DNA of 64,000 bases from Blepharisma japonicum (lineage: Eukaryota > Ciliophora > Heterotrichea > Heterotrichida > Blepharismidae), in NCBI GenBank assembly GCA_949751835.1, contig CATKHK010000010.1, positions 1-64,000 on the forward strand, written 5' to 3'. Below are positions 3,579-61,981 of the stretch, in pieces. The position numbers were made by a program, and so were the translations under genes. Position 1 is the stretch's first letter; each line of letters opens with the position of its first letter. The notes under the pieces were generated by a model. It saw nothing but the letters and a program-made list of their open reading frames with translations. It was not told the DNA's origin and ran no database searches.

Positions 3579-5357
3579 ATGGAGCTGAATCAATGTTTCA
3601 AGCTAGGGTGTAAGCGCAAAGCTGAATATTCATGCCAATGCACCTCTCCTGGAACTCTATCCTGTGTAAAGCACTTCGGGGAACATGTGAATCGACCTGG
3701 TAAGGCTCATGCATTTGAGAAAATTTTTGTAGAACCATGCAAAGGAACAAAAGAAGCAATGCTGGAGTTTCTTACAAGAGAAGAATCAAAAAATAATAAG
3801 CTGAAGGGAAGGATCCTGGCATCCTTTAGCCAGCGTTTGATTGAATCAGAAAATGGTATTAAAGAGCTTTTAAAAAGGGTAGATTCAGCCTCAGCTGAAA
3901 TAGGCAACTATTTTACAAAAATTTCTCAAGCTCAAAAGTTATCAAAATCAGAGCAGGACCCAGTTTTAGTACTATTGAGTTTACAGCCTGAAGAAGCTGT
4001 TGAGAAATTAAATAAGATTATCCCAGCCAATCAAGAATGGCAAAACAGTGCAAAGCTATTTTGTGGATTCCTTGAAAAAATAGAGACAATGATCGAATTT
4101 TTCATTAAAGACAAATTTGAGGAATATTGTGATAGCAGACTCAATAAAATAGAAAAATCACTTGAAGACAACAATAAGAGTATCAATTCAATCAATGAGG
4201 AGCATAAAAAAGACTTTGATTTAATGAATGATGAGCTAGCAAACATCAAAGATACTATTTCTAATCTAATAAATGAGAATAAAAAAAGCTGCAAAAATCT
4301 CGAAAACTTAAAAGAAGAAATAAACTCAAAAATGGAAAATGAGATCGATCAAATTCATTCTCAAATAATCGATGTAAATCAAGATCTCAAAAAAATAAAC
4401 ACTCAAAATCTACTTAAAGAATTAAAAGACAAGAGATTAGAAATTTTAAATAAACCAAATGACCCAGAATTAGAAAAAGAATTTAGGGAAAATTGCTCAA
4501 TCTACCAAAGCCATACCTGCATTAACGACCCACCTATTCAGCAAGCATATCAAGATTATAGCCTTGCTTACTGTAAAAACACATCACTTTATAGTATTAT
4601 TACAGTAGATTATTACCAAACTAATTTGTTTATTTATGATACAGAAAGAGAAAGTGAAGACGGCAGAGTGTTAGAGACTCCTGAACCATTAGGCAACGGC
4701 ACATGTATAGCTCAACTGCCTGGTGGAAATTTATTTTGTTTTGGTAATGATGATGCTTCTGGCATTTGCTTGATAATTGACGAGAATTATAGAATTCAAC
4801 ATCTGCCATCTGGAACTCCATGCGAATGTTCATCGTCTATCTATTTCAATAATAGTGTTTACTGCTTTGGAGGATGAAATAAAAATACTTTAACTCTATC
4901 AGAGAGATTTGATTTGAATAAAAGGAAATGGATTAAGTTAAAGCCACTGCCGCAAGCTGATTGCAGCTGCATGAATATAATATTTAATGGAAATATTTTG
5001 ATTTCTGGAAAGAATAATAAAAATCTTTTGCGATATTCAATTGTTGGCAACACTTTCGTGACAATTCCTTATGATTTTGCCAGTTGTAAAAGAAAAATCC
5101 TAATAAATTCAGAGAGATTATATTTAATTGAATGTCAAAATGGATCAGTTTATGAAAGTGAAGTTTCAAATGACTCTGTCTGGAGAAGGATTGGAGATTC
5201 AATAATATTTGGTTGTGATCAAGTATATCTCATATACAACAAAGGAGCAATTTACATTACACAGTGTAACTTTCATGGCACAGCATACTTCAAGTTTAAT
5301 TTGAAAGAGAAGACATTATTAGAGCACCTAGCTGTAGGAATTTTGTTAAATACATAG
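3579..5357 (+). CDS. B-box-like zinc finger / coiled-coil / kelch-like protein
   Basis: 592 aa, single exon, with TGA at 4875 read as Trp. Residues ~7-50 carry the zinc signature C-x4-C-x7-C-x-C-x7-C-x2-H-x3-H-x7-H, resembling B-box or AN1 fingers. Residues ~60-290 are helical and charged (coiled coil). The C-terminal ~270 residues form a propeller-like region with kelch-type features (VYCFGGW, RFDL...KW, NILISG). It is the same family as the minus-strand array at 40-62 kb, but with a kelch-like end where most members have a RING-like end. This is the best preserved B-box/kelch copy in the window; 5979-6825 holds pieces of a relative. By analogy with kelch proteins the propeller may bind a partner protein. 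Ubiquitin-related function is inference only. Confidence 0.85.
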
Positions 5358-5750
5358 TCCTCTTTTAATACTCTTTGGCTATTAATTTTAAAAATTATAT
5401 CATTGATCAATATAGTTTATATAGCAATACACTTATTTAGCCAAAGCTAGGGCTGCAAATGCCCCTAGAATATTATTAATAGATCTGCTGTTTGAAATTG
5501 ACAATTCTCTCCCGCTCAATTACTCAACTGAAATCATCTTGCTAATTCTATAATTTTTGACGATATATTTTAGGCTTTGTTGAATGTTCATTAATCATAT
5601 TGATTTTGAAATATAAATTTTACGAAAAATAATCACTTTGGGTGATAAGCATAATTTTATTAAATAAATAATTACAGAAATCTATGAATGAGAAGTAGTT
5701 TCAAAATGAAATTTTAGAATTTGCCTCAATCCACTTTTGGGTGGTTTTTG
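5358..5750. other. Intergenic spacer
   Basis: About 390 bp of AT-rich DNA without a supported gene. On the minus strand the open frame of the adjacent repeat copy runs a short way into this spacer (to about 5715), which suggests that the repeated unit derives from a coding 3' end. Confidence 0.4.
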
Positions 5751-5957
5751 GTCGCAGATTCTCAATCTGTAGTATTTTCCTCTGGTAGAGCCTTCGATCT
5801 AGAAATTTTTAGCAGGATTCTTTCCACGGCATGTGGATGCTATGTAGTTAATTAGACAAGTTTAGGTGTTACTCATTGCTTTCTTATTAATTATTATAGG
5901 ATGATTGATTTAATCCTTTGAGCATTTGAGCAATACAATTTATAGGTGTTAAAAATA
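5751..5957. repeat. Dispersed ~207-bp repeat, copy 2
   Basis: Second copy of the element at 1-210, same orientation, ending at the same run of bases. Differences include a 3-nt indel and a TGG/TGA difference in a shared minus-strand frame. It directly abuts the fragmentary kelch-family pseudogene, so the repeat may mark a recombination or insertion junction. No terminal inverted repeats or target-site duplications were recognised. Confidence 0.85.
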
Positions 5958-5978
5958 AAGCTAACTTGTTAATTTTCA

Positions 5979-6825: not shown

Positions 6826-7222
6826 AAATATAAATACTCGCTCGAATTTGTTATATCCCTTTAGAAAATTATATTGAAAAATCAAATAAATAAGCATATT
6901 ATTTTAAAATTAGTATTGAGTAATTAACTTTTGGCACTTTCAAATTATACCTTTATAAAATGCTAACAAGAGATTGCAAATATTTTATCTAGCAAATTGC
7001 CATAAAAACTTCAATTATTGATCTTAAGTGGCTAATAAGGTTGTAATATCTAAATACGAATGATTTTACTTGAATATGTCAAGAAATTAAAAAATATAAA
7101 GAAAGCTGCTCTCTTTATATGAAATCTAGTGTTATTAAATCTTTTAATAGAATAAATATTATTTAATTAGATTCATTTGGCTCTTTTAAAAATATTAAAC
7201 TTATTAAGCTAAAAATTAATAA
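6826..7222. other. Intergenic spacer
   Basis: About 400 bp, strongly AT-rich. No open frame, RNA gene or repeat that I can support. Confidence 0.5.
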
Positions 7223-12285: not shown

Positions 12286-12327
12286 AGATTTCTTATAAAA
12301 ATATAAATTTCAGGAAATGCATTTAAT

Positions 12328-13485: not shown

Positions 13486-13490
13486 GTTAA

Positions 13491-34815: not shown

Positions 34816-36213
34816 ATGAGCCTGACCGAAGCTGACAAAAACAAAGACTTAGGTGGATTTTTTGCAGTCCACCCCAAATATGACTGCCCACATCTAACTG
34901 ACGAAAATTTTAACCCAGACATATCTTTCTATTCAGAAATTACCATAAAATCACCTTGTGCAGACTGCTCAAATGTCGGTGAAAACTGGGTGTGCTTGAA
35001 ATGTGGACAAGTAAAGTGCTCTCGCTATGTCAAAGAGCATATGCTTATGCATGCAATTGAGAGCTCTCATGGGATTTCTCTAAGTTTTTCCGACCTTTCC
35101 TTTTGGTGCTATAAATGTGATTCTTATATTTCGAGTCCAGAATTAAGAGAAATTTTAAAGGCTTTTCAGACAAAAAAATTTTATACACCTTCAGGAGCTA
35201 TTCAAGAAAATGTAAAAGAAGAGGAGGAGGAAGAAGAAGAGGTCAAAAAAGAAGAAGCAAAAGAAGAGGATAAAAAAGAAGAAGCAAAAGAAGAAAAGCA
35301 GCCAGAAGAAACAAAAAATGAAGTAGAACAGCTTGAAAAAGGCTTAGAAGAGCTAAAAATTGCAGAAGTCACCAAAGATTTTAATAGAAAAACACTTGAA
35401 GAATTCGCAGAAAAATTACGTGCAGGTGTTTTCAAAAAAATTGCTATTATGGCTGGGGCAGGCATCAGTGTAAACGCAGGAATCCCTGATTTCCGTTCTC
35501 CAGGTGGTTTTTACAGTAAAGTTGAAAAACTTGGTTTACCCTACCCCGAAGCTGTTTTTCACATCCAGTACTTCCGAGAACAGCCAGAAATCTTTTATTC
35601 TTTATCCGGTGACCTAATCCCCGAAAACCTAAAACCTACCCCAACTCACTATTTCTTTAAACTTCTAGAAGACAAAAATCAGCTAATGATGTGTTACACA
35701 CAAAATATCGACGGACTAGAAAAAGATGCTGGAGTTTCACCATTAAAACTCTTACAAGCCCACGGTCATTTTGACAGTGCTCACTGCATTGGCTGCAAAA
35801 AAGAATACGACATTAACGATCTAAAAAACCACATAAAAGAAATGACTGTGGCTTATTGTGATAAATGTGGAAAACCAGCCAAGCCTGATGTAGTATTTTT
35901 TGGGGAGCCACTTCCTGCAAGATTCCAATCTTGTGCTTTTATGATGCAAGATGCAGATCTACTGATTGTGATTGGGACTTCTCTAGTAGTTTTCCCATTT
36001 GCAAGCTTAGCAGAAATGGTGAATAAAAATGTACCTAGAGTTGTGATAAATAAAAACCTTGGTGATTCTACGGTATGGCAAGGGTTGAAATTTAAAGACC
36101 CAAAGGATAAAAGAGACGTTGCATTTGTAGGAGATAGTGATGAGATTATTAGGGAGCTAGTAAACTTGTGTGGGTGGCAAGAAGAGTTTGAAGCCCTAAT
36201 GAAAAAGAATTAA
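34816..36213 (+). CDS. ZnF-UBP / sirtuin (Sir2) fusion protein
   Basis: 465 aa. Residues ~24-125 carry a ZnF-UBP finger (CPHL, CADC...VCLKCGQVKCSRY, HMLMHA, then FWCYKCDSY), which in HDAC6 and deubiquitinases binds the free ubiquitin C-terminus. A 50-residue Glu/Lys linker (~132-185) joins it to a class I Sir2 domain: GAGIS (214-218), PDFRS (224-228), TQNIDGLE, catalytic HGHF, zinc Cys pairs CIGC and CDKC, and VVFFGEPLP/VIGTSL. Sir2 enzymes use NAD+ to remove acetyl groups from lysines. It most resembles SIRT2-type enzymes, whose cytosolic substrate is alpha-tubulin. The finger could target it to ubiquitin, as in HDAC6. Confidence 0.92.
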   Translation: MSLTEADKNKDLGGFFAVHPKYDCPHLTDENFNPDISFYSEITIKSPCADCSNVGENWVCLKCGQVKCSRYVKEHMLMHAIESSHGISLSFSDLSFWCYKCDSYISSPELREILKAFQTKKFYTPSGAIQENVKEEEEEEEEVKKEEAKEEDKKEEAKEEKQPEETKNEVEQLEKGLEELKIAEVTKDFNRKTLEEFAEKLRAGVFKKIAIMAGAGISVNAGIPDFRSPGGFYSKVEKLGLPYPEAVFHIQYFREQPEIFYSLSGDLIPENLKPTPTHYFFKLLEDKNQLMMCYTQNIDGLEKDAGVSPLKLLQAHGHFDSAHCIGCKKEYDINDLKNHIKEMTVAYCDKCGKPAKPDVVFFGEPLPARFQSCAFMMQDADLLIVIGTSLVVFPFASLAEMVNKNVPRVVINKNLGDSTVWQGLKFKDPKDKRDVAFVGDSDEIIRELVNLCGWQEEFEALMKKN

Positions 36214-40236: not shown

Positions 40237-41253
40237 TTAGCTAAATGCCATCTCAAGAGTTTTTTTCTCATATTCTGAATAACTTCTATTGCATTTATGA
40301 CAGCGTTTAATATTTTTTATCCTGCATCTATTGCAAATTTGATGGTCGGTGCATCATATCGCGCACTCATCAATATCTATTCACTGCTTACATGTTGAGC
40401 ATTGAGTTTCATTTTTATGAGAAATATCACTTTTTGCTAGATTTAAGTAATTTGAAGCGATGCATTCTTCTTCTTCTTCTTCAAGCTCGTTACCACTGCT
40501 ACCCATTTCCTTGATTAAATCGTAAGATAATTTTGGAATTGTGGAATTTTGTAATTGTGCAAGAAAATTTGGATCAATAGAATGAACTATCTTAATGGAA
40601 TTATCTTGCTGAAATTGATTGTCTTGCTTGGCTCTGTCTACTTGACTAGCATTTTTAGTTGTATTTTCATTAAATGATGCTAAATGGCGTCTTAAATCTT
40701 CATTTGACTTTTTTAGTAAATTTTCAACAAAAAATTGAGAGTTATCACTTAACTTTTTAGCGCTCTTATTTATTTGTTTCATCATTTTCCGAGTATTAGA
40801 TGCTTTTGCTTCAAAATCCTCCAGCAATAATAATTTAAATCTTTCTAAGGCTTCTTGAGGTTTTAAAAGCAAAAAGTTTAAAATAGGATCTTTTTCTAAT
40901 CCAGAGACCTTTTCTGTTTCTTTGATTGCAGTGATTATTTTATCAAATCTTATATCTGTATCAGCTATAGTTGCCTGCAGTAAATCTTCAATAGTAATCA
41001 TAATTTTTGAAGCCAACTGAATAAGCATCGTTTTATATTCATTGAACTCTTTCTTAGAATTAGGAATTTCCTCAAGAAGAGCTTCCTTTGTATCTTGGTT
41101 TGGTAAGAGATATAATGATTGAATTAAATGATGCACTGGGGATAATTGCTTATGATTAAATTCATGCATTCTACAAAATGGTGCCTTATTGCAATGACAG
41201 AATGATTCTGCTAGGTTTTTGCAGTCTGGGAAAGTACAATTAATTTGCTCCAT
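40237..41253 (-). CDS. B-box-like / helical / RING-like protein, array member 1
   Basis: 338 aa, with TGA read as Trp in the C-terminal RING-like module. The N-terminus (MEQINCTFPDCKN) has the family zinc module C-x4-C-x7-C-x-C-x5-C-x2-H-x3-H-x7-H, residues ~6-43. A helical linker spans ~50-270. The C-terminal RING-like module has ligands C-x2-C-x12-C-x2-H-x2-C-x2-C-x7-C-x2-C (CSTCKQWID, CTDHQICNRCR, CHKC). Spacing fits a compact C3HC4 RING, so an E3 ubiquitin ligase is a plausible role, but E2-binding residues were not assessed. It is the most diverged member at the left end of the array. Confidence 0.8.
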
Positions 41254-41817: not shown

Positions 41818-42744
41818 CTAAAAAAGTGAATGATGTATTCCCTCAAGAGTCATTCTATCTTCGTGCATATAACATCTATTACAAAATTCACAATGGGTTA
41901 AATTTTTAATTCTGCATCTATTACAAATATTGTGTCCATGGCATTTAATAGCATATTCATCCAAAGTTTTTCAACGTGCACATTCTAAACATTGAGCTGC
42001 TTCATTAGGAGCTTCAGTGCTTTGTGGTTTGTTTTGAAGGTTTTCTGTATTTATGATATTTCCTGGGTCTGGAAATTTTTCAAATTGCTCTTCTAAATCT
42101 ATATATCTTATTTTCTCATCAATTATTTCACTCAAAGTTAACTCTTGCTCTTCATTTCATTTTTTGGAAATATTTTTAGATGGTAAGCTCTGAGTGCTTG
42201 AATCCCAAAAAGTATTTTCAAATTCGTAATAATCATTTATTAAATCTTCTGCATGAGCTATAATTTCTTCCATTGTTTGACTAATTTTAGATGTTCTCGC
42301 TTCAATCTCATGCTGCATTCATCATCTAAAGCCATCCAAAGCTTCAGGAGGGTCTAAATTTAATAATTGTAAATAAGGGTCTTTTTCTAGTTTACAGACC
42401 TTTTTGGAATCTGTAATATTTCTTAAAATTTTATTGATATCGCATTCTGTGTCTATAATGCTTTTTTCTAATAGATTTTCGAGAGTGAAAAATATTCGTG
42501 AGACTTTTTCAATGAGATTCTTATTATTTATTTTTAATTGTTCTTGAGTATAAATAGTTTCTGTAAGAAGAACATTTTTTGTATTCGGGCTAGGCAAGAC
42601 AAACAATGGCTCAATTGAATGAGATTTTTTGGATATTTTTTTGTGTTTTGATAAATGATTTTTGCAAAATATGGATAAATTGCAGTCGCAGATGTACTTT
42701 GCTGGATTTTTGCAGGATGAGAAAGCACATAAATATTGTTCCAT
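41818..42744 (-). CDS. B-box-like / helical / RING-like protein, array member 2
   Basis: 308 aa, with four TGA codons read as Trp. N-terminal zinc module (CAFSSCKN, YICDCN, FCKNHLSKHKK), a helical linker with an acidic middle, and a C-terminal RING-like module (CLECARW, CHGHNICNRCR, THCEFC) with the same C-x2-C-x12-C-x2-H-x2-C-x2-C-x7-C-x2-C spacing. Both zinc modules appear complete. A probable E3-type adaptor or ligase by architecture. The short Trp-encoding TGAs would split it under the standard code. Confidence 0.8.
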
Positions 42745-43411: not shown

Positions 43412-44434
43412 TTAACTAGCCTCTTGGAGTCATGTCAGCACCTTTAAATCTAAATTGAACTTTAAGTACTGACTTTTTGATTCTCAAAACCCAACATATA
43501 TTGTTTCTTTATTATATAAATATGACATTTGGTAAGGATAGTTGGTACTAATAATTGAATTTCCAATTTTTTTTCAAGCATACTCATCCCCAACGTCACT
43601 TTCGTAGATGAATCCTTTCTCTCCATGTTCAATCAAATACAATCTCTCTGTTTTTATTAATGTCTTTACAATAATTTCCTGAAACTCATAAGAAATTGTT
43701 GAGAAAGAGTCAATATCAGTAGAGTACAATAAAAGGTTTTTCATTCACCCAGAAATCAATATATTCCCATTAAATATTACACTATGGCAGCTATAATCAT
43801 TTCTTGGCATAGGAGTTAATTTAATTCATCGATTTTTATCCAAATCAAATCTGCGGGATAGAGTTGAAGCTTTATATGATCTTTTTTTTCTTCCAAAGCA
43901 ATAAACTGATCTATTTAAATAAATTGCTGATGAGGCAAAGGAAGGTGCTCCTGATGGTAGCTTTCGAACTTTTAGATTTTTATCAATAATTAAAGTAATT
44001 CCAGAGGGCACAAAAACTGTGCCATAACAAAACAACTCGCCATTTGGAAGCCGAGCGATGCATGTGCCATTAGTTAAATATTCTGGAGTTTTCAAAATTT
44101 TAGTTTCTTTTCTTTCTCTTTCAGTGTCGTAGATTATCAATAAAGCTCTGTGTTTTTTACTATCATATGCAATTTGATAAATAGATGTGGCATGATGATA
44201 AGCATCAACATATTCTTGAAAAGCTTTACTTAGTGTTGGATCAGAAATCTTACTATCATACAATGAGCAGGTTTTTCTGAAATCTCTTTCTGTTTCGGGA
44301 TCATTCAATTTGTTTAAGAGCTCAGATGCTTTAATTTTAAGCTCTTCAACTGATAGCTGATTTATTTGTGCTTTTGCTTCGTTATTGAACCCTTCAACTG
44401 TTGAATTTATTTGAGAATTAAGCAATTTAGCCAT
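43412..44434 (-). CDS. Kelch-like array member lacking the B-box-like module
   Basis: 340 aa, with several TGA codons read as Trp (DKNRWINLT, ISGWMKN, EYAWKKIG). It aligns with the coiled-coil end and propeller of the gene at 3579-5357: DPETERDFRKTCSLYDS, IIYDTERERKETKIL, CIARLPNGELFCYG, RLYLIE. The zinc module is missing; the ATG opens directly in the middle helical region. It is either a naturally shortened propeller protein, perhaps acting as a dominant-negative or adaptor, or a 5'-truncated copy. The reading frame is intact, so I call it a gene. Confidence 0.7.
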
Positions 44435-45132: not shown

Positions 45133-46407
45133 TTATGAAAGAGAGATGAGTATAACCTCAAGAGTTTCTTTTTCAGAGTTAGAATAAAATCTTTCGCATT
45201 TGTTACACTTATCCACATTTTTAATCCTACAGTTATTGCAAATATAATGAAGAGGGCATGCAATGGAATATTCATCTAAAGTTTTCCACAGCCCGCATTC
45301 AACACATGTATTCTTATTTTTATAGCTTTCATCATTATCTTTTTCCTTTTTTGAATGGTTTGCAGGGCTTATCTTATCCTTTAAGTCATTCATGTATACT
45401 ATTGGTCAATCAATTTGAGTGCGCTGAGGAGTTTTTATAGAGGCGGAAGGCTCACTTATTGTTGAAGCGCCTTGAGGCGGCTGAGAAATTTTTATTGAAG
45501 GTTCAAATATTGCTGAGGCACTTTGACATTGCTGAATAGGGTTTATTGAATTTATAGGCTCAATTGTGATAATTTTAGTAATTCCGTCTATTAATGATGG
45601 CAATAAAGAAGAGTTGGCTATCAAATCTTTATCAGGCACTGAATTTTTAAATAGCTTAGAAGAAGGAGCTAATAATGGAATGAAAACGGTTTGTTTTTGA
45701 TTTGGTTTTGGCTGATAATCATTAGAAGACAGTTTTTTTTTTGGCTGCTCTAAGATTTTATTCTCAATTTTTGTTTCCCCGCTTTCTATTTTTGAGATAA
45801 TTTTAATTGCTTTTATATTGATAGATGGCAAAGTCATAATTCTATTTCCTATTGCTTCTTGTGACCCCATAAGCAAATTCATATATGATGTTTGTTTTTT
45901 TCTGAAATATTCTACTTCTTCTCAAATTTTTTTCTCAACTTGAGAAATTCTCAAGATTTTAATCTTAAATAAATTTTTGATATCCAATTGGAAATCTTCA
46001 ATATCTTCTTTTGATTCTAATGTTAATGATTTTAAAAGAGGATCTTTTTCCAGCTTTGAAATTTTTTGGGTATTTTTGATTTCTAATAGGATTTTATTTA
46101 AATTGTATTCTGTTTTAATTATAACGCTTTTAAATAAATTGTCAATAACAGAAATCATTTGGGAAAGAGACTCGATTAGCTTTGTTTTATTTTTAGATAA
46201 TTCTACTTTAGCTTTTGATATCTCTTTGAGAAGGATAAGACGCATTTCTGGGTTTGGTGGGAAATATAATGGCTCGATTGAGTGAGGCTGGGTGGGTAAT
46301 TTTTTGTGCTCAGATATATGCATTTTGCAAAATTGAGCTAAGTTGCAGTCGCAGATATATTTTGCTGGATTTTTACAGTCAGAGAAAGTGCAAAAATGCT
46401 CTTCCAT
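45133..46407 (-). CDS. B-box-like / helical / RING-like protein, array member 3
   Basis: 424 aa, with two TGA codons read as Trp (KKIWEEVEYF; and QIDWPIVY). The N-terminal zinc module (CTFSDCKN, YICDCN, FCKMHISEHKK) is followed by a helical domain, then a Ser/Pro/Gln/Ile-rich linker, probably disordered, of about 150 residues, then the RING-like module (CVECGLWKT, CPLHYICNNCR, CNKCERFY). All eight RING-type ligands are visible. I placed the start at ATG 46407 rather than at an in-frame ATG 14 codons upstream because the other members begin at this point. Confidence 0.8.
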
Positions 46408-47560: not shown

Positions 47561-48771
47561 TTATAAACCTTCAATAAGCTTCAAGCTTTCAATGTCACCT
47601 TCCCAAGCTCGTTTCAGTACATCAATAGATTCTCCAACTTTAATTTTTAATCCATCAGGATTAGTTAATAATGATAAAAGTTCTTCATTATTCATTTCTA
47701 AAAGCATACCAGTGATCTTTCCTGCAATTTTTGTGTTCGAATTCTTCAGCACGACTGGGTATAACGCTTCTCCTAACATTCTTTTCTTGAACTCTGGTGG
47801 AGCAGCTTCATAAGTCTTGATGTCGAAATTCAACGGGGGTTGAGTTGGTATTTTTTTCACTTCAAAAGGTTTAAATAATTCAGGATTGTAAACCCAAGCT
47901 TTTCTCATAACATCAATAGCTTCACTTACTTTAAGTTTCAATCTATCAGGATTAGTTAATAATAGCAAGAGTTCCTGATTATCCATTTCCAAAAGCATAC
48001 TAATGATCTTCTCTGCAGTCTTTTGGCTCAAATTCTCTAACACTAATGGGTATAACGCTTCTCCAAGCATCCTTTTCTTATATTCTGGCGGAGAAGCTTT
48101 GTAGGTCTTCATATCAAAATTAGATGGAATCAGCGGTTCCTGAGCAGTTATTTTTTTCCTTCACTTTTTTTGAGTATTTTTACTTGCCTTTACATAGATT
48201 GATGGCAATTTCATAATGCTGTTTTCTGATATTTTACTTGTCTCTATTGGTAATTTACCGAGTGAATTTTTATATCTTCTAAAAGCTCTGCTATTCTTTT
48301 AAATTTTCTCTCAATGCTAAAAAGATTAACTATCTCTGGCCGATATAAAAATCTAATGATTTTGATTGCTTCTTCTTTGTCTAGTATTAATAATTTTAAA
48401 ATAGGATCTGCCTCCAGCCTTGAAACTTTCTTAACATTTTTTATTGCTTCGAAATTGTCATTAAAATTGAATTCTGTTTCAATTGTATATTTTTGAATTA
48501 AATTCTCTAGGTTTTTAATTATATGAGAAATAGACTCAATAAATCTTGCTTTATTTTCATTTCACTCTGATTTAGCCTGAATTATTTCTTTGATAAGAGC
48601 AGCACATGTGTCTGGGTTTGGTGTGTAAAATAATGGCTCGATAGAGTGATGCTCGCTAGATAGTTTTATATGCTCAAGTATGTGCATTTTACAAAACAGT
48701 CCTTTTTTGCAGTCACAGATGTAATTTGCTAGGCTTTCACAAGCAGAGAAAGTGCATAAATGGCCTTCCAT
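47561..48771 (-). pseudogene. Array member 4: B-box-like protein ending in two PABC/MLLE domains (frameshifted)
   Basis: The N-terminus (MEGHLCTFSACES, YICDCK, FCKMHILEH) is the family zinc module and the helical part continues to ~48265, with TGA as Trp. The C-terminal part (47561-48112) encodes two copies of a ~60-residue helical domain: KRMLGEALYP...KIISMLLEM and KRMLGEALYP...KITGMLLEM. This is the PABC/MLLE fold of poly(A)-binding protein, which docks PAM2 peptides. Between ~48285 and ~48245 the two parts lie in different frames, and neither TGA=Trp nor a 15-nt GT...AG intron joins them. Either this is a fresh frameshift, a sequencing error in the nearby A run, or an unusual intron. Domain combination not known to me elsewhere. 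Confidence 0.7.
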
Positions 48772-49266: not shown

Positions 49267-50448
49267 TTATATTGAATCACGAATTGCTCCAAGGATTTCA
49301 TTTTCATGATTAGAATAGCCTCTTTCGCAATTAATACATTGATTTAAATCCTTAATCCTACAAGTATTGCAAGTTTTATGCTCAGGGCATGTGATAGAAA
49401 AATCACCAGGAGACTTAATTTGTTCGCATTGATAGCATGTATTTCCAGCTGGTTTTTTGCCATTTTCCCAAGAAATCAGCTTTATTGATGGATTACGTAC
49501 CATTTCAAAAGGAATTTGGCTTAAGGGATTGTCGCGCCCCTCTTTAGGAAACTCTGCACTATCAGCTCCCTTTTCTGCTGAGTTTATTAATTTATTTAAT
49601 TCTAAATAATTTGTTGGGGAAATTTGAAGTTCATGCTCACATCTGACTAAACTTCTCGGAATCAATTGTTCATACAATTCTCTTAAACAATAAGCACAAT
49701 GGTCATTTCCACATAAAGGCTTGTAAATTAAATTTGGATGGCCGCATTTGAATCCTTTTGAAGAAATTTCTTTATTTAAGTTTTTATCTAGTTTAGAATC
49801 AAAAGATGATATTTCTTTTGACTGTTCAAAAATTTGTTTTGAGGTTTTAATTTGATTTTTTGCTTCTAAAATAATTAAATCTATATAGTTTTCTTTTATC
49901 TTATTTGACTCTATCAGAAAACTATCATATGATCTTCGGCATTTTCTAAAAAATTCTGCTTCTTCTTCAATTTTTTTTATAATTTCAGAAATTTTGGTTT
50001 GTTTAAATTCAAGCTCAGGCTGGAAAATTAGTCTGAGATTTTTTATAGCTTCATTTGATTCTAATGTTAATAATTTTAAAATAGGACTTTCATCGAATCT
50101 ACAAATTTTCTTAGTTTCTTTGATTTCAGTCAAACTTTTATCAAAATTTAATTCTGTATCAATAATTAATTTTTCGATTCAATCTTCTATATTGGCAATC
50201 ATGCAAGAGGCAGACTCAAAAAACTTTGTTTTATTTTCGTTTAATTTAGCTCTATTGCTTATTATTTCTTTGATAAGAGCGACCCTTGTTTCTGGCTTCG
50301 GTGTATAAAATAGAGGCTCGATTGAGTGAGGTTGGGTAGACAACTTTTTATGCTCCGGTATATGAATTTTGCAAAATTGAGCTAAATTGCATTCGCAGAT
50401 GTATTTTGCTGGATTTTTACAAGCAGCAAAAGTACAAAAAAGCTCCAT
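49267..50448 (-). CDS. B-box-like / helical / central zinc cluster / RING-like protein, array member 5
   Basis: 393 aa, with TGA at ~50179 read as Trp (ANIEDWIEK). N-terminal zinc module (CTFAACKN, YICECN, FCKIHIPEHKK), then a helical region with the family phrase FRKCRRSYDSFLIES, then a second zinc-like cluster at about residues 236-280 (C-x-H-x8-C-x3-H-C-x2-C-x15-C-x-H; CGHPNL, CGNDHCAYC, RCEH), then the C-terminal RING-like module (CYQCEQIKS, CPEHKTCNTCR, CINCERGY). It lacks the long Gln/Pro-rich repeat of members to its right. All modules are intact. A ubiquitin ligase function is inferred from architecture. Confidence 0.85.
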
Positions 50449-50459: not shown

Positions 50460-51160
50460 GATAATTAACTATTAAGCTTATTCATAAGCATAAACTAAGT
50501 TATCAAGAGCATGAAAATCTAAACCTGATAGATTTTAATTTAATCATATATATATTACGAAGCAGGTTTAATTCTAATACATTGTTTATAAATAAATAGC
50601 AGTTAAATTATCTTCTTAACCAAGTATATCATATTTACAAAGAACGTATGGAGTCAACATTAAATTTTTAGTGTGTTTTATTACATCGTATTAAACCCCG
50701 CATACTTTCCTCTTTTATTCTTTTCTCGAATTAGAAGTTGATAAAACCTTCAAAAAAATCTTTTGATTTGTTAAGCTTAGTTTTCAGATCTTTTTACTCT
50801 CAGCTTCAAAATCTTCTGTCATTGGATAATAGCGAATCGACTCAAAATATAGTTTTTGCGCATTCAGTTATAATTTTAGCTTCCTTGCCTGTAGCTGATT
50901 CGCAGGATAGGCGTATACCTCTCAAGCGCTGACATTATTTACTATGATGATCATTTATATAATTGCTATCTTCTCTTAGGTCGTAACATTACATTTGGTA
51001 TCCATTTCGATCTATTCCAAATCCAATTTATCGCAAAAATTTCTTAAGACCCATAATAATTATATAGATATGGAACTAGCCGATATATCAAATTAGACAG
51101 TTAAGAAAAAAATTCAAGAATACACCGAGATTCTAGAATTGCCAAATGTAAATAGGCAGA
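50460..51160. repeat. Segmental duplicate, copy A (with broken minus-strand gene)
   Basis: Resembles 55250-55975 over most of its length with small indels. On the minus strand it contains a decayed reading frame (RGIRLSCESATGKEAK, then IRYYPMTEDF in copy B) disrupted by frameshifts and stops; copy B is less damaged but also broken. A small unknown host gene seems to have been duplicated along with array members and then lost. Not recognised as any mobile element. Confidence 0.7.
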
Positions 51161-51965: not shown

Positions 51966-52325
51966 TTAATAGCGATTATTGGCTATAGTTTCTCCAATTT
52001 CAGTCAAACTTTTATCAAAATTACATTCTGTATCAATTAATATTTTTTCTAATCAATTTCCTATATTAGAAATCATGCAAATGGCAGATTTCAAAAATTT
52101 TGCTTTATTTTCGTTTAATTTTTCTCTGGCCTTTATTATTTCTTTAATAAGAGCGACCTTTGCTTCTGAATTTGATGCATAAAATAGATGCTCGACTGAG
52201 TGAGGCTGGCTGAATAATTTTTTATGCTCCGGTATATGAATTTTACAAAATTGGGCTGAGTTGTATTCGCAAATGTATTTTGCTGGATTTTTGCAAGTGG
52301 CAAAAGTACAATAAAGATTTTCCAT
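51966..52325 (-). pseudogene. Truncated array member (B-box-like module only)
   Basis: About 119 codons, with TGA as Trp (NIGNWLEK). It covers the zinc module (CTFATCKN, YICEYN, FCKIHIPEHKK; the fourth ligand Cys of the CxC pair is replaced by Tyr) and about 60 residues of helix, then leaves family similarity at SLTEI and stops soon after. The loss of a zinc ligand and of everything downstream suggests a dead fragment. It sits 89 bp downstream of the next member's stop with the shared spacer between them. Confidence 0.75.
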
Positions 52326-52414: not shown

Positions 52415-54199
52415 TTAAAGTGAATCACGAATTGCTGTAAGAGTTGAAATTTCATTAGGAGAATAGCCTCTCGAACAATTAATGCATTGAGTTAAATCCT
52501 GAATCCTGCAAATATTACAAGTTTTATGTTGAGGGCAGTTAATAGAAAAATCATCAACACCCTTAAATTTTTGGCACTGGTAACACTCAATTTCTGCTGG
52601 AATTGGGGCATTTTTTGGCACTAGGGGTGGGGCTGGTGGAACTTGTGGAATTCCTTGATAAGGAGGCATTGGATCTCTTTGCTGGTTTTGGGGTTGCTGA
52701 TACTGAGGCTGATTCATAGCAGGGCCAGGGTTTCTGTTTTGTGGGCCTGGATTTGGGGCGAATTGGGATTGATTAGCAGGATTGCGCATTCCAGGTTGAG
52801 GGTAATTTCCTGAAACGTTTCCAGTCCCAAACTGAGATTGAAGGCCTGGCTGCATATTAGGGTTAATTCTTGGATCTTCAATAGAAATTGAAATCGTGAC
52901 TTCTTCATCTGAATCTGAATCAACTGGCTGGGTATAAGCTTGAGATTTTTGCTGCATTGTGCCTTTAGGAATATTTTGAGTTTGTGGTACATAATTACCT
53001 TGTGGGGGAAAATTACCTTGCTGAGAAATATTACCTTGTTGAGGCTGCCTAATCTGTGGAGGAATCTGGCCTCCAGGCTGCATTTTTTCTTCTTTCGGAA
53101 GTCCTGGACTCTCCCCTCCTACTTGTACTGTCTTCAAAAGGTTTTCCAAATCCTTAATATTTTTTGGGCTGATTCTTCTCCCATGCTCACAAGTGACTGT
53201 TGTATTTTTTGCTTTTGCTTGATCTAATAGTTCTTTTAAACAATACGCACAATGCTCATTTCCACACAAAGGCGTATAAAGCAGAACCTTATGATCACAT
53301 TGCTTCACTCTCGCTTGTGCAGGCTCAGCTGGTCTTAGTCTTTTTAAATTGGCTTTTAGCCTGACATAATCATTAGTGTCTAATGAGGAGTCAGCGGCTG
53401 CACCCTCATTAAGTAATTTTAATAAAATTTCGTCATAGTAATTTGGGAGGCATGTAAAGATCACCGTAGACATATGAGAAATTAGCTGCTTATAAATATT
53501 ATCTTTTGAGGGAGAAGCACAATTACCTTGTGAAGGTAAAATTACTTGCTGAGGAAAATTACCTTGTTGAGGCTGCCTCATCTCTTGAGGAATCTGACCT
53601 CCAAATTGCTTTTCTAAAATAATTGAATCTATATATTGTTTTTTAATATTACTTGACTCTATCAGAAAACTATCATATGATCTTCGGCATTTTCTAAAAT
53701 ATTCCGTTTCTTCTTCAATTTTTTTTATAATTTCAGAATATTTGGTTTGTTTAAATTCAAGCTCAGGTTGGAAAAGCAGTCTGAGGCTTTTTATAGCTTC
53801 ATTTGATTCTAATGTTAATAATTTTAAAATAGGTTTTTTTTCAAATCTACATATTTTCTTAGTTTCTTTAATTTCAGTCAAACTTTTATCAAAATAATAT
53901 TCTGTATCAATTAATATTGTTTTGATTCAATCTTCTATATTGGAAATCATGCAAGAGGCAGATTTCAAAAATTTTGCTTCGTTTTCGTTTAATTTAGCTC
54001 TATTGTTTATTATTTCTTTGATAAGAGTGACCTTTGTTTCTGGGTTTGGTGTATAAAATAAAGGCTCTATTGAATGAGGCTGGGTAGACAATTTTTTATG
54101 CTCTGGTATATGAATTTTGCAAAATTGAGCTAAATTGCATTCGCAAATGTATTTTGCTGGATTTTTGCAAGGAGCAAAAGTACAATAAAGATTTTCCAT
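52415..54199 (-). CDS. B-box-like / zinc cluster / Gln-Pro-rich / RING-like protein, array member 6
   Basis: 594 aa, with TGA as Trp near 53927 (NIEDWIKTI). The N-terminal zinc module and helical linker are as in other members. A middle segment of ~105 residues is nearly identical to the protein at 60086-61981 (KDNIYKQLISHMSTVIF; NDYVRLKANL), including the second zinc cluster (CDHK, CGNEHCAYC, TCEH). A ~170-residue Gln/Pro-rich repeat region (QGNFPPQGNY, NQPQYQQPQNQQ, PYQGIPQVPP) precedes the RING-like module (CYQCQKFKG, CPQHKTCNICR, CINCSRGY). The protein looks like a fusion of a short B-box-like member with the back half of the otubain-like member. Both zinc modules complete. Confidence 0.88.
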
Positions 54200-54288
54200 T
54201 TAAATTATAGAATCATCCAATTAAAAATTATTTTCAAGGCTTTCGATAATGTTAACACAAAATAAACTTGTTATTAAACCTAATTATT

Positions 54289-55243
54289 TTAAAGTGAATC
54301 ACGAATTGCTGTAAGAGTTGAAATATCATTAGGAGAATAGGCTCTCGAACAATTAATACATTGAGTTAAATCCTGAAGCCTGCAAATATTACAAGTTTTA
54401 TGTTTAGGGCATTCAATTGCAAAATCATCAGCACCCCTAACTAGTTCACACTGGTAGCACTCATATCTAGCTGGCTTTTGGGTAATTTTTGGTACTAGGG
54501 ACGTGGCAGGTGGAACTTGTGGAGCTCCTTGATAAGGAGGCATTGGATCTCTTTGCTGGTTTTGGGGTTGCTGATACTGAGGCTGATTCATAGCAGGGCC
54601 AGGCTTTCTGTTTTGTGGCCCTGGATTTAAGGTGAATTCGGAATCAGGATTACTTATTTCAGATTGAGTGTAATTTCCTGAAACGTTTCCAGTCCCAAAC
54701 TGAGACTGAGTGACTAACTGCATATTAGGGTTAGCTTCTGGCTTTCTGAAGCAACTGAGATCGAGACTTCTCCGTCTATATGTGAATCGACTGGCTGGTT
54801 ATAAGCTTGAGATTTCTGCTGCATTGCGCCTTTAGGAATATTTTGATGTTAATAATTTTAAAATAGGATTTTTTTCGAATCTACAAATTTTCTTAGTTTC
54901 TTTAATTTCAGTCAAACTTTTATCAAAATTTAATTCTGTATTTATTAATATTGTTTTGATTCAATCTTCTATATTGACAATCATGCAGGAGGCAGACTCA
55001 AAAAGCTTTGCTTTATTTTCATTTAATTTAGCTCTATTTTTTATTATTTCTTTTTTATTATTTCTTTGATAAGAGCGACCCTTGTTTCCGGCTTTGGTGT
55101 ATAAAATAGAGGCTCGATTGAGTGAGGCTAGGTAGACAATTTTTTTGCTCCGGTATATGAATTTTGCAAAATTGGGCTAAATTACAATTGCAGATATATT
55201 TTGCTGGATTTTTACAAGTAGTAAAAGTACAAAAAAGTTCCAT
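54289..55243 (-). pseudogene. Array member 7, internally deleted pseudogene
   Basis: The N-terminal module starts normally (MELFCTFTTCKN) but a frameshift follows at the IPEHKK position, with in-frame stops. Near 54850 the frame of the middle region jumps directly to the Gln/Pro-rich region, missing several hundred bases of the typical member. The last 144 codons (54289-54723) with the RING-like module (CYQCELVRG, CPKHKTCNICR, CINCSRAY) are still open. A dead copy. Confidence 0.8.
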
Positions 55244-55249
55244 TTAAAT

Positions 55250-55975
55250 TATACCATTTCTCGATCCTTGAAGAAATACACTTAATATAGCTTATTACAT
55301 TAAAAATAAGCTTAAGAGCAAAATCTAAGTCTGAAAGTTTTTATTTTAATCCTATATATTGGTAAAAAGTAAATCTAATTTATGAAACTCTTTTGGTTTC
55401 CCGAGAATACATTGATATAAATAAATAGCAATTAAATTATCTTCTTAACCTATCATAGCCCCAGCATATGTATGTAGTCAAATTAAATCTTTAGTGTGTT
55501 TTATTGCATCGTATTCGGACCCCGTGTGCTTTCCCCTTTTATTCTTTTCTCGAATTAGAAGTTGATAAAACCTTAAAAAACTTTTGATTTGTTAAGCTTA
55601 GTTTACAGATCTTTTTACTCTCAGTTTCAAAATCTTCTGTCATTGGATAATAGCGAATCGACTCAAAATATAGTTTTTGCACATCTTCAGCTATAATTTT
55701 AGCTTCCTTGTCTGTAGCTGATTCGCAGGATAAGTGTATACCTCTCAAGCGTTGACATTATTTCGCTATGATGATCATTTATATAATTGCTATCTTCTCT
55801 TAGGTCGTAAATTTGCATTTGGTATCCGCTTCGATCTATTCCAAATCCAAAATATTGCACAAATTTCTTAAGCTCCATAATAATTATATCGATCTGAAAC
55901 TAACCGATATATCAAATTAGATAGTTAAGAAAAAATTCAAGAATACACTGAGATTCTAGGATTCTCAAAAGAAAG
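55250..55975. repeat. Segmental duplicate, copy B (with broken minus-strand gene)
   Basis: Partner of 50460-51160. On the minus strand, about 55880-55709 reads KKFVQYFGFGIDRSGYQM and YDLREDSNYINDHHSEI, then a frameshift, then 55539-55748 reads RGIHLSCESATDKEAKII, KICKLSLTNQKFFKVL. No intron of 15 nt joins them. The gene's function is unknown. Flanking array genes are also shared, so the duplication involved a multi-gene block. Confidence 0.7.
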
Positions 55976-56529: not shown

Positions 56530-58125
56530 TTAATTTGTTTGAAGAATTTTACAAAAATCACATATAGTTAAATGCTTATCCCTGCATTTATTACAAATGC
56601 CATGTGTAAGGCATTAAAAACAATAATCCTTAATAGACCTAACTTGTTTGCACTGGCAACACCAAAATTCAGCTGGCTTTGGGGCATTTTTTGGTACTAG
56701 GGATGATGCTGGTGGAATTTGTGGAGCTCCTTGATAAGGAGGCATTGGACCTCTTTGCTGGTTTTGGGGTTGCTGATACTTAGACTGATTCATAGCAGGG
56801 CTAGGGTTTCTGCTTCGTGGACCTGGATTTGTGGAGAATTGGGATTGATTAGTAGGATTACGCATTCCAGATTGAGGGTAATAATTTACAAAATAGCCTT
56901 TCCAGTGGTTTTGGGGTTGCTGATACTGATCCTGATTCATAGTAGAGCCAGGCTTTCAGTTTTGTGGGCCTGGATTTGGGGCAAATTGGGATTGATTTAA
57001 AGGATTACGCATTCCATATTGAGGGTAATAATTTTCATAAACGTCTGGCTGGTTTATGTATTGCGGATCTTTATGACTCATAGCAGGGCCAGGGTTTCTG
57101 CTTTGTAGTTGTGGATTTGGTAGGAATTGAGATTGATAAGCAGGATTACGCATTTCAGGTTGTAGTTGTGGATTTGGTAGGAATTGAGATTGATAAGCAG
57201 GATTACGCATTTCAGGTTGTAGTTGTGGATTTAATAGAAATTGAGATTGATAAGCAGGATTACGCATTTCAGGTTGAGGGTAATAATTTTCATAAGCGTG
57301 TGGCTGCATATTAGGCTTAGCTCCTGGCATTGTAAAAGGAATTGGGATCAAGACTACTTCGTCTGAATCTGAATTAACTGGCTGGTTATAAACTTGAGGT
57401 TTCTGCATTGCGCCTGGTTTAGGGATATCTTGAGTTTGTGGAGCACAATAACCTTGTGGAAGTAAATCACCTTGCTGAAGAATATTACCTTGCTGAGGCT
57501 GCCTCATCTCTCGAGTAATCTGACCTCCAAGCTGTGTTTCTAAAATAATTGAATCTAAATTGTTTTCTCTTATCTTATTTGACCCTATCAAAAAACTATC
57601 ATATGAAGTTTGGCATTTTCTAAAATATTCTACTTCTACTTCAATTTTTTTTATAACTTCAGAAATTTTGGCTTGCTGAAAATAAAGCTCAGACTGGAAA
57701 AATAGTCTGAGGTTTTTTATAGCTTCATTTGATTCTAATGTTAATAATTTTAAAATAGGATTTTTTTCGAATCTACATATTTTCTTAGTTTCTTTAATTT
57801 CAGTCAAACTTTTATCAAAATAATATTCTGAATCAATTAATATTGTTTTTATTCAATATTCGATATTGGAAATCATGCAAGAGGCAGATTTCAAAAATTT
57901 TGCTTTATTTTCCTTTAATTTAGCTCTATTGTATATTATTTCGTTGATAAGAGTGACCTTTGTTTCTGGCTTCGGTGTATAAAATAAAGGCTCGATTGAG
58001 TGGGGCTGGCTAGACAATATTTTATGCTCCGGTATATGAATTTTGCAAAATTGAGCTAAATTGCAATTGCAAATGTATTTTGCTGGATTTTTACAAGGAG
58101 CAAAAGTACAATAAAGATTTTCCAT
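56530..58125 (-). pseudogene. Array member 8, RING-like module cut by a premature stop
   Basis: From 58125 to 56614 a frame of ~503 codons is open (TGA as Trp at ~57850 and 56956). It has the zinc module, helical linker, and a Gln/Pro/Asn-rich region that includes a 57-bp tandem repeat, three copies. The RING-like module then begins (CCQCKQVRS) but a TAA falls just before its third ligand. The rest of the module continues in frame to 56530 (CLTHGICNKCR, CDFCK), at a position where relatives have Asp/Glu, consistent with a GAA-to-TAA change. The product would lack RING ligands. It might still act as a decoy. Confidence 0.75.
57104..57274. repeat. 57-bp tandem repeat, three copies, inside array member 8
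   Basis: Three nearly identical 57-bp units encode PEMRNPAYQSQFLxNPQLQ (19 aa per unit). The flanking sequence encodes related MRNP...NQSQF phrases seen once in other members, so this is a local expansion. It preserves frame. Confidence 0.92.
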
Positions 58126-58213
58126 TTAAATTATAGAATACTAATTAAAAATTATTTTCAAGGCTTTCGATAATATTTACGACAAAATAAACTTATTATT
58201 AAACCTAATTATT

Positions 58214-59995
58214 TTAAAGTGAATCACGAATTGCTGTAAGAGTTGAAATATCAATAGGAGAATAACCTCTCGAACAATTAATACATTGAGTTAAATCCTG
58301 AAGCCTGCAAACATTACAAGTTTTATGTTGAGGGCAGTCAATAGAAAAATCATCAGCAGCCCTAAATTGTTCGCACTGGTAACACTCATATCCAGCTGGT
58401 TTTGGGGCATTTTTTGGCACTAGGGATGTGGCTGGTGGAACTTGTAGAGTTCTTTGATAAGGAGGCATTGTACCTCTTTGTTGGTTTTGGGGTTGCTGAT
58501 ACTGAGGCTGATTCATAGCAGGGCCAGGGTTTCTGTTTTGTGGGCCTGGATTTGGGGCGAATTGGGATTGATTAGCAGGATTACGCATTCCAGGGTAATT
58601 TCCTGAAACGTTTCCAGTCCCAAACTGAGATTGAGGGCCTGACTCTATATTAGGCTTAGCTCCTGGCTTACTAAAAGGCACTGGGATTAAGACTTCTCCG
58701 TCTATATGTGAATCAACTGGCTGGTTTAAAGTTTGAGGTTTCTGCTGCATTGCACCTGGCTTAGGAATAATATGAGCTTGTGGAGCATAATTACCTTGTG
58801 GTGGAAAATCACCTTGCTGAGGAATATTACCTTGTTGAGGCTGCCTCATCTGTGGAGGAATCTGACTTCCAGACTGCATTTTTTCTCCTTTCGGAAGTTC
58901 TGGGCTCTCCCCTCCTACTTGTACTGTCTTCAAAAGGTTTTCCAAATCTCTAGCATTTTTTAGGCTGATTTTTCCCTCATGCTCACAAGTGGTTATTGTA
59001 TTTTTTGCTTTTGCTCGATCTAATCGTTCTTTTAAACAATACGCACAATGCTCATTTCCACACAAAGGCGTATAAAGCAGAACTTTATGATCACATTGCT
59101 TCTCTCTCACATGTACGGGCTCAGCTGGTTTTAGTCTATTTAAATTGGCTTTTAGCCTGACATAATCATTATTGTCTAATGAGGGGTCAGTGGCTGCACC
59201 CTCATTAAGTAATTTTAATAAATTTTCGTCATAATAATTTGGGAGGCTTGTAAAGATCACTGTAGACATATTAGAAATTAGCTGTTTATAAATATTATCT
59301 TTTAAAGGAGATGCACAATTACGTTGTGGAGGTAAAATAACTTGCTGAGGAAAATTACCTTGTTGAGGCTGCCTCATCTCTTGAGGTATCTGACCTCCAA
59401 ATTGCTTTTCTAAAATAATTGTATCTATATGTAGTTTTTTAATATTACTTGACTCTATAAGAAAACTATCATATGATCTTCGGCATTTTCTAAAATAATC
59501 CGCTTTTTCTTCAATTTTTTTTATAATTTCAGAATATTTGGTTTGTTTAAATTCAAGTTCAGGTTGGAAGAGCAGTCTGAGTTTTTTTATAGCTTCATTT
59601 GATTCTAATGTTAATAATTTTAAAAAAGGATTTTTTTCGAATCTACAAATTTTCTTAGTTTCTTTAATTTCAGTCAAACTTTTATCAAAATAATATTCTG
59701 TATCAATTAATATTGTTTTGATTCAATCTTCTAAACTAGAAATCATGCAAGAGGCAGATTTCAAAATATTTGCTTCATTTTCGTTTAATTTAGCTCTATT
59801 GTTTATTATTTCTTTAATAAGAGTGACCTTTGTTTCTGGGTTTGGTGTATAAAATAAAGGCTCGATTGAATGAGGCTGGGTAGACAATTTTTTATGCTCT
59901 GGTATATGAATTTTGCAAAATTGAGCTAAATTGCATTCGCAAATGTATTTTGCTGGATTTTTGCAAGGAGCAAAAGTACAATAAAGATTTTCCAT
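58214..59995 (-). CDS. B-box-like / zinc cluster / Gln-Pro-rich / RING-like protein, array member 9
   Basis: 593 aa, very similar to the gene at 52415-54199. Start MENLYCTFAPCKN; TGA as Trp near 59723 (LEDWIKTI). Zinc module, helix, middle segment with second zinc cluster (CDHK, CGNEHCAYC, TCEH), Gln/Pro-rich repeats (NQPQYQQPQNQQ, PYQRTLQVPP) and RING-like module (CYQCEQFRA, CPQHKTCNVCR, CINCSRGY). All ligands intact. The pair suggests recent duplication of a fused gene. Confidence 0.88.
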
Positions 59996-60085
59996 TTAAA
60001 TTATAAAATCATCCAATTAAAAACTATTTTCAAGGCTTTCTATAATATTTACGACAAAATAAACTTATTATTAAACCTAATTATT

Positions 60086-61981
60086 TTAAAGTGAATCACG
60101 AATTGCTGTAAGAGTTGAAATATCATTAGGAGAATAGCCTCTCGAACAATTAATACATTGAGTTAAATCCTGAAGCCTGCAAACATTACAAGTTTTATGT
60201 TGAGGGCATTCAATAGAAAAATCATCAGCAGCCCTAACTTCTTCGCACTGGTAACACTGAATTCCAGCTGGCTTTGGGGCATTTTTTGGCACTAGGGGTG
60301 GGGCTGGTGGAACTTGTGGAGTTCCTTGATAAGGAGGCATTGGACCTCTTTGCTGGCTTTGGGGTTGCTGATACTGAGGCTGATTCATAGCAGGGCCAGG
60401 GTTTCTGTTTTGTGGGCCTGGATTTGAGGCGAATTGAGATTGATTAGCAGGATTACGCATTCCAGGGTAATTTCCTGAAACGTTTCCAGTCCCAAACTGA
60501 GATTGAAGGCCTGGCTGGATATTAGGGTTAGCTCCTGGCTTTCTAAAAGCCACTGGGATTGAGACTTCTCCATCTATATGTGAATCAACTGGCTGGTTAT
60601 AAGCCTGAGATTTCTGCTGCATTGCACCTTTAGGGATATTTTGAGCTTGTGAAACATAATTACCTTGTGGGGGAAAATTACCTTGCTGAGGCTGCCTCAT
60701 CTGTGGAGGAATCTGACCTCCAGACTGCATTTTTTCTCCTTTCGGAAGTCCTGGGCTCTCCCCTCCTACTTGTACTGTCTTCAAAAGGTTTTCCAAATCT
60801 TTAGCATTTTTTGGGCTGATTTTTCCCCCATGCTCACAAGTGGCTGCGGTATTTCTTGCTTTTGCTTGATCTAATAGTTCTTTTAAACAATACGCACAAT
60901 GCTCATTTCCACACATAGGCGTATAAAGCAGAACCTTATGACCACATTGCTGCCCTCTCGCTTGTGCAGGCTCAGCTGGCTTTAGTCTATTTAAATTGGC
61001 TTTTAGCCTGACATAATCATTATTGTCTAATGAGGGGTCAGTGGCTGCACCCTCATTAAGTAATTTTAATAAAATTTCGTCATAGTAATTTGGGAGACTT
61101 GTAAAAATCACTGTAGACATATGAGAAATTAGCTGCTTATAAATATTATCTTTTGAAGGAGAACTAGGCTCAGATTTTCTTTCTTCTGGAGGGGATAAAG
61201 GAGAAGCGGGTGGTTCTCTATTGACTGGAGCTTCATTAACTTTTGCAGTTGGGGTTGGAGGAGGAGGATTAGGCCTTGGAGCTGTCTTTGGGTTATAAAA
61301 AAAGGGGAATTTTTCTAAATTGTCAGTCATTGGAGTTCCTAAGTCTACTTGAATGCTTTCTCTGTGATAAAGAACACTAAAAGACCCATCCTCTTCCATA
61401 AAAAGAGTCACGAGTGGGCCATTGTTTCTATCATCTCTAACCATATATTGGTGGCTTGATGCCATAACAATCAAGACGTTTACTCTTAGCTTGTTACAAA
61501 AATGCTGAAAATAATACTCGTTCCCTCTCAGCGTGTATGCACTAGTCAAAATATTGTTGTATTGATGATCTTTATCGACAATCACACAAAACATCAACCT
61601 CATACCTATATCTAAAGCGTCACAAGCGTTTTGATGATTTATCTCAAGTAATTGTCTAATATTTTTTAGAGCTGCTTGCTTAGGTTTTTTGATAAAAATT
61701 TCAGCGACAATGTATTTAAATTTTTCCCAAATTGGACTATAATCAGGGATTTGTTTAACAAACTCATTAGTTAGTTTGATATATGAGTCGACCGCTGCTC
61801 ATGATGGAGCAGACAGATTAGAATCCTTGATTCTGATTAGAGCTTGAAACAAAGCAGTGCCAATTGCTAAATATGAAGACCTTACAGGTGGAACAATTTT
61901 ACTTTTGCAATTAAACTCTATAAAGTCACCAGAGAGCTGAAGTTGCTCGGGAGGTAAAAGCTTAAAGTCAGGTATCGCCAT
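60086..61981 (-). CDS. Otubain-like N-terminus fused to zinc cluster and RING-like protein, array member 10
   Basis: 631 aa, with TGA as Trp at 61799 (SAPSWAAVDSY). There is no B-box-like module. Residues 1-~225 include a helical segment with ALDIGMRLMFCVIVDKDHQYN followed by LRVNVLIVMASSHQY and GPLVTLFMEEDGSFSVLYH, an order reminiscent of otubain-type OTU proteases. The catalytic Cys and His positions are not evident, so it is probably an inactive relative if at all. A Pro/Ser linker, the segment KDNIYKQLISHMSTVIF with the zinc cluster (CGHK, CGNEHCAYC, TCEH), Gln/Pro repeats and the RING-like module (CYQCEEVRA, CPQHKTCNVCR, CINCSRGY) follow. Members 6 and 9 carry this same back half. Rightmost gene of the array. 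Confidence 0.8.

Follow-up and report, generated by a model that had tools for sequence, protein, structure and literature searches.

Chimeric zinc-module genes beside a degenerate otubain-like gene in Blepharisma japonicum

The start of contig CATKHK010000010.1 of the ciliate Blepharisma japonicum (GCA_949751835.1), of which we analyzed positions 1 to 64,000 (the window), carries a run of genes with a putative zinc module at either end of a helical linker: an N-terminal module (N1) and a C-terminal RING-like module (tail). An earlier reading of the sequence (the original prediction) proposed a rearranged family of TRIM ubiquitin ligases, with a B-box-like module first and the RING last. Does the locus hold TRIM proteins in reversed order, or genes joined from other sources? 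By comparison of sequences, we show that the array holds chimeric genes, whose N1 and helices come from a genome-wide superfamily and whose tail, together with a third zinc module (mid), is common to an adjacent otubain-like gene at 60086-61981. The locus is of interest because domain shuffling can be seen in it, next to a degenerate otubain, and because of relatives in which an otubain and a RING1-IBR-RING2 (RBR) ligase share one chain.

A minus-strand array with modules at both ends

We performed a strict-pattern six-frame scan of the window, reading TGA as Trp; in B. stoltei, TGA encodes Trp and introns are predominantly 15-16 nt (PMC9942806). The scan identified 9 intact N1 modules, with the pattern C-x4-C-x7-C-x-C-x5/7-C-x2-H-x3-H-x7-H in most copies, and 8 tails with exact C3HC4 spacing, compared with 0 matches to either in 200 windows simulated by a first-order Markov model; the spacings described in the original prediction are supported. 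Profile searches recovered 2 damaged N1 copies (51966-52325 and 54832-55242) and 1 tail interrupted by an in-frame TAA (56530-56676), in keeping with the varied completeness first noticed. The earlier count of eleven B-box-like modules is right because it comprises the 9 intact and 2 damaged copies. The mid module, overlooked at first, has 4 copies in the window.

The array spans 40237-61981 on the minus strand (~40.2-62.0 kb). It had been taken to run from 3579 to 61981, but the gene at 3579-5357 is a plus-strand N1-kelch gene, and unrelated genes, for example SIR2 and polynucleotide kinase, lie between it and the array at 5.4-40 kb. Among the array genes, 60086-61981 has an otubain-like head and no B-box-like module. 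In the gene at 48771-47561, N1 is followed by two MLLE domains instead of a RING, provided that a 17-nt intron is spliced. The two frames of this gene are joined by removing 17 nt, while removing 15 or 16 nt fails; this gene model is uncertain because a 17-nt intron is of unusual size.

Heads and tails from separate families

N1 begins at residue 5-6 of the open frames with no RING upstream, and the RING-like module comes last. We searched the genome with a profile of N1 and the ~130-residue helical linker and scored 150 places of 448 candidates; all 150 matched (weakest E value 5.5e-7), of which 11 were parts of the 10 array copies and 1 was the kelch gene at 3579. Nineteen N1 loci outside the array were read through, and 9 carried kelch, 5 TPR and 5 neither (Pfam, E <= 0.001; one of the last five runs off its locus). 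This superfamily has the same N1 and linker as the array proteins, with C-terminal kelch or TPR instead of the RING-like module. In one gene on another contig (L075, C39), N1 and coiled coil are joined to a weak match to mid (E 0.09). The tail search of the genome returned 16 places (9 in the window, 7 elsewhere) and the mid search 11 (4 in the window, 7 elsewhere).

The DNA of the array is itself a mosaic (copies are named by their lower coordinate; Table 1). In its 3' half (61162-60020, continuing past the stop into the next gene's leader), the otubain-like gene was 92.3% identical to copy 58214 over 1164 columns and 90.7% identical to copy 52415 by blastn. Copies 49267 and 58214 were 89.4% identical over N1 and linker (601 columns) and 77.6% over the tail (228 columns), a contrast with a Fisher p value of 2.7e-5 when sites are treated as independent. 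In the broken copy at 54289-55242, the N1 and Q/P-rich matches meet at 54846, which marks a deletion. In B. stoltei, proteins P0004 and P0006 have N1, mid and tail, although P0004 ends inside the tail, and P0002 is the otubain-like gene; by eye, the B. stoltei fusion joint retains a few more otubain-like residues than the window copies.

In phylogenetic trees, every N1 head of the array and of B. stoltei fell into one group (96/99), and 49267, 52415, 56614 and 58214 formed a group specific to the window (99/98). The mid tree clustered 52415 and 58214 with the window otubain-like gene at modest support (86/88). The tails of 40237, 41818 and 45133 grouped with another otubain-like paralogue (82/85), and there may therefore have been more than one tail donor. 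We rejected a rearranged TRIM family because head and tail have separate parent families in the same genome: the head comes from the kelch- and TPR-joined superfamily and the tail from the otubain-like gene next door. Unequal recombination beside that gene may have put N1 and helices in place of its head on one or more occasions, around the time of the split from B. stoltei or earlier; afterwards, copies would have been duplicated in tandem, exchanged tails and decayed. If so, the locus would display domain shuffling in progress: a span of 22 kb contains donor, recipients, hybrids and wrecks, and related fusions exist in a second species, B. stoltei. Even then, no new kind of ligase would be revealed.

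The otubain-like neighbor and its RBR relatives

A search of the genome with the otubain-like head returned 7 places, and several genes outside the window share the N-terminal domain of 60086-61981 (profile search, open frames). When a profile of 9 heads was compared with the Protein Data Bank (PDB), the 8 best matches were OTUB2 or OTUB1 (E values from 1.5e-4, for OTUB2, to 0.011), and the best of these covered 190 positions. The column of the catalytic Cys holds Ser in 8 heads and Thr in 1. By profile, the head of 60086-61981 is thus otubain-like and degenerate. It and 8 paralogues resemble otubains (Peptidase C65, OTUB1/OTUB2) but differ from them in the Cys-to-Ser/Thr change in 9/9 heads and in their fusion to RING-like modules, and the N1 fusions have no such head. 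As a control, the Peptidase_C65 model found 13 other genome places at E <= 0.1. The otubain-like gene of the window has 73% identity to a B. stoltei protein and matches a transcript-derived protein (P0001; 99% identity over 80% of its length). Separately, the gene L074 on contig C5 has an otubain-like head and a mid-like module; the cysteine-rich stretch after these appears LIM-like by eye and has no Pfam LIM match at E <= 1.

Three genes on contigs C90 and C97 (L083, L084 and L085; Table 1) combine an otubain-like head, RING-like repeats and an RBR unit in one chain. L083 and L084 are two of the 13 places found with the Peptidase_C65 model. The head of L083 retains DGNC and GHYD, and the otubain site of this protein is apparently intact. 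We compared the tail profile with the RING-like repeats of these proteins and obtained a probability of 97.5% (E 7.6e-12), while two cysteine-rich controls gave 0.1% and 0.3%. This supports a RING kinship of the tail family, which has relatives inside single-chain otubain-RBR proteins. The array proteins resemble RBR ligases in that the RING-like repeats before the RBR match their tails, and differ in having neither IBR nor RING2; membership in the RBR class was rejected, as the array proteins tested have no IBR match in Pfam.

These genes raise a tentative scenario, which we think has appreciably more chance of being wrong than right, in which an otubain-RBR protein decayed stepwise. An active head (C90) would have given way to a Cys-to-Ser head with RBR (C97) and then to a degenerate head without RBR (60086-61981 and its paralogues), whose heads were finally swapped for the B-box-like coiled coils of another superfamily. 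The products would capture E2~ubiquitin (ubiquitin on its conjugating enzyme, E2) or parent ligases and redirect them by their heads. A single-chain otubain-RBR ancestor, if real, could in principle both remove and add ubiquitin, and single chains of this kind would be candidates for ubiquitin editing in ciliates.

Zinc modules compared with B-boxes and RINGs

The eight ligands of N1 (C5H3) are invariant in 25/25 aligned sequences. In an AlphaFold model of the protein of 49267-50448, the N1 blocks have a predicted local distance difference test score (pLDDT) of 80-87 and the tail blocks mostly 85-92, and helices occupy residues 52-98 and 131-213, as expected of the helical linker originally described. 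The best Foldseek match of the N1 model was PML B-box1 (probability 0.99, TMt 0.67, E 0.2), with further matches to the CONSTANS and TRIM28 B-boxes (0.89) and the PML RING (0.87), none at E < 0.1. VIA-align returned many helical proteins over residues 49-202 without indication of one family. N1 thus resembles, as a predicted fold and without a significant E value, a two-zinc C5H3 module of the B-box1 type; the claim of a B-box-like fold stands to this extent, while sequence searches of Pfam and PDB remained ambiguous.

The predicted B-box1-like fold, the long helices and their union with a RING-like module in one chain recall TRIM/RBCC proteins such as PML and TRIM28. Unlike their order of RING, B-box and coiled coil, the array has no RING before N1, its C-terminal RING-like module has a separate origin, and N1 is not matched with confidence by B-box sequence models. 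The first observation was partly confirmed, and the TRIM interpretation is partly supported: half right in fold, wrong in origin. The description of the Tetrahymena protein Zfr1p, a further comparison, mentions no RING-like tail. A search of open-licence literature on B-box/TRIM/kelch or OTU/otubain with RING/RBR in ciliates returned nothing on this family.

Could these proteins nevertheless be working RING E3 ligases, with parts reversed relative to TRIM, that dimerize through coiled coils, bind substrate through N1 and transfer ubiquitin through the tail? The exact RING spacing in 8 tails is in keeping with this, as are the pLDDT of ~85-92 of the modelled tail and the matches of some tail paralogues to RING models. 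Among 15 tails, 4 matched zf-RING_5 (best 4.8e-5) and 6 matched zf-C3HC4 (best 0.0088), and the family matched the BRE1 RING at 0.032. However, none of the RING and B-box models of Pfam was matched by the window proteins tested (E <= 1), and a zf-RING_UBOX genome search placed no match in the window (150 scored of 410 candidates). The RING-like tail of the original prediction is thus upheld as kinship, through zf-RING_5 and the otubain-RBR repeats, and not as a Pfam RING in the window proteins themselves. The best PDB neighbors of mid were weak (RAD5 0.014, RBBP6 0.052).

In a typical RING ligase, C2 is preceded by a hydrophobic residue, while C7 is followed by Pro and C8 by a basic linchpin. 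The linchpin Arg of RING ligases is described in PMC8897509, and RBR RING1 domains are without it (PMC8586995). Across 7 window tails, I/L/V before C2, Pro after C7 and Arg/Lys after C8 each occur in 0, which goes against the ligase reading; the eighth window tail (54292-54474) is the same at these positions. The 8 outside paralogues have I/L/V before C2 in 4 (Phe in a fifth), Pro in 5 and Arg/Lys in 3. The sole one with all three is L034 (Val before C2, Pro after C7, Arg after C8), which speaks for the ligase reading. Because the usual E2-contact residues are absent (0/7), independent ligase activity of the window tails appears doubtful, and we judge the reversed-ligase explanation rather unlikely.

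Selection, expression and possible roles

The ratio of non-synonymous to synonymous substitution rates (dN/dS) of N1 was 0.28-0.74 and below 1 in 28/28 pairs; from mid to tail it was 0.39-0.45 for pairs with 49267. Some array copies are likely to be functional, as judged from these sequences. An opposing view is that the genes are mostly side products of rapid recombination near a contig end, fusions that arise and disappear while having hardly any function or none. It draws on the 3/10 array N1 copies whose N1 or tail is broken or truncated (51966, 54289 and 56530), on the lack of a transcript-derived protein match for the N1 fusions, on a mid-to-tail dN/dS of ~1 in recent pairs, and on the crowding of N1 places at low contig ends (<20 kb; 64/139 outside the array versus at most 13.8 expected, where contig ends are not necessarily telomeres), the window being at the start of its contig. 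On the other hand, 7/10 array N1 copies are unbroken by these criteria, N1 dN/dS is low, ligands are kept in diverged copies and similar fusions occur in B. stoltei, so we regard the by-product view as unlikely. The large number of N1 genes, their contig-end bias and their varied C-terminal partners (kelch, TPR, MLLE, RING) might also suggest a diversifying recognition family that binds foreign or self molecules, but dN/dS is below 1 in all 28 pairs and a functional link is absent from our results, making this highly improbable.

We favor coiled-coil adaptors for ubiquitin-system partners. The intact proteins would assemble via their long helices and N1, and the mid and tail modules may bind E2~ubiquitin or RING/RBR proteins that partner the parent family. 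They would thus act as non-catalytic or heteromeric subunits and not as independent RING ligases, and swapping the head would alter the target to which the module is delivered. OTUB1 associates with some but not all E2 enzymes, and its trapping of E2~ubiquitin involves no catalysis (PMC6254341); this non-catalytic hold could serve as a model for the parent otubain-like gene. If this is correct, degenerate deubiquitinase and RING-like modules would be reusable as adaptors. Taken as one explanation, origin by the joining of two families plus a non-ligase adaptor role seems to us evenly balanced between right and wrong.

Several results weigh against this combined explanation. The otubain link comes from a single profile search: in hmmscan, none of the aligned heads matches Peptidase_C65, the head profile matched the three otubain-RBR heads weakly (probability 4.1%, E 0.01), and the head model has a pLDDT of 44. 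Neither the N1 model nor the head model had any Foldseek match at E <= 0.001; 16 of the best 50 matches of the head are what we take to be OTU-fold proteases, none significant. The N1 sequence is ambiguous, matching AN1 in 4/25 members (best 0.021), HIT in 2 and an ANCHR-like B-box in 1 (0.0075), and a PDB sequence search with N1 returned no B-box. A direct derivation of mid from the RING that comes first in the otubain-RBR proteins was unsupported (probability 0.4%). The trees give modest support to the order in which the fusions took place. Mid-to-tail dN/dS was 0.91-1.17 in the three recent pairs, which fits weak constraint, though low-complexity sequence was included. Finally, a protein search with N1 fusions gave 2 hits, both B. 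stoltei genome predictions and neither transcript-derived.

Feature coordinates and further observations

Table 1. Genes and modules of the window, followed by relatives on contigs C90 and C97.
Position	Strand	Feature	Evidence
3579..5357	+	N1 (3594-3710) + coiled coil + kelch; relative outside array	Kelch_6 1.1e-5, Kelch_1 1.9e-5
40237..41253	-	N1 (41128-41238) + helices + tail (40291-40401), no mid	motif scan, open frames
41818..42744	-	N1 (42619-42729) + helices + tail (41872-41991), no mid	motif scan, open frames
43412..44434	-	kelch-like gene without N1, within array	kelch-repeat domain 1.7e-4, Kelch_6 0.0046, both below Pfam cut-off
45133..46407	-	N1 (46282-46392) + helices + tail (45196-45306), no mid	motif scan, open frames
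47561..48771	-	N1 (48646-48756) + helices, candidate 17-nt intron 48242-48258, two MLLE domains	MLLE 1.4e-43
49267..50448	-	N1 (50326-50436) + helices + mid (49576-49758) + tail (49327-49437)	protein used for structure model
51966..52325	-	N1 fragment, early end, one ligand Cys to Tyr	profile search
52415..54199	-	N1 (54074-54184) + helices + mid (53126-53314) + Q/P-rich + tail (52475-52585)	
54289..55242	-	broken copy: N1 in two frames, deletion joint 54846, tail 54349-54459	
56530..58125	-	N1 (58000-58110) + helices + Q/P-rich, no mid; TAA 56614-56616 cuts tail	
58214..59995	-	N1 (59870-59980) + helices + mid (58901-59110) + Q/P-rich + tail (58274-58384)	
60086..61981	-	otubain-like head (61277-61981) + mid (60773-60961) + Q/P-rich + tail (60146-60256), no N1	
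60020..61162	-	3' block common to 59311-58148 (92.3%) and 53516-52350 (90.7%)	blastn
C90:75200-78300		L083, otubain-like head + RING-like repeats + RBR	Pfam C65 1.5e-28, IBR 8.8e-8, RING
C90:78900-82000		L084, C65 + RING-like repeats + RBR layout	in-frame stop between head and RINGs
C97:34200-36900		L085, similar layout	Ser at Cys site by eye; no C65 match at E <= 0.01

Upstream of copy 49267 and of the broken copy lies a repeat (50576-51000 and 55406-55824; 430 columns, 89%), a sign of segmental duplication. A protein search with the kelch copy gave 2 matches, both B. stoltei, and this N1-kelch gene is flanked by direct repeats of 72 and 143 nt (96-97% identity) that lie ~5.75 kb apart (window 1-213 and 5751-5960). 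Between this gene and the array, a plus-strand gene at 34816-36213 fuses zf-UBP (3.2e-20) to SIR2 (7.4e-61).

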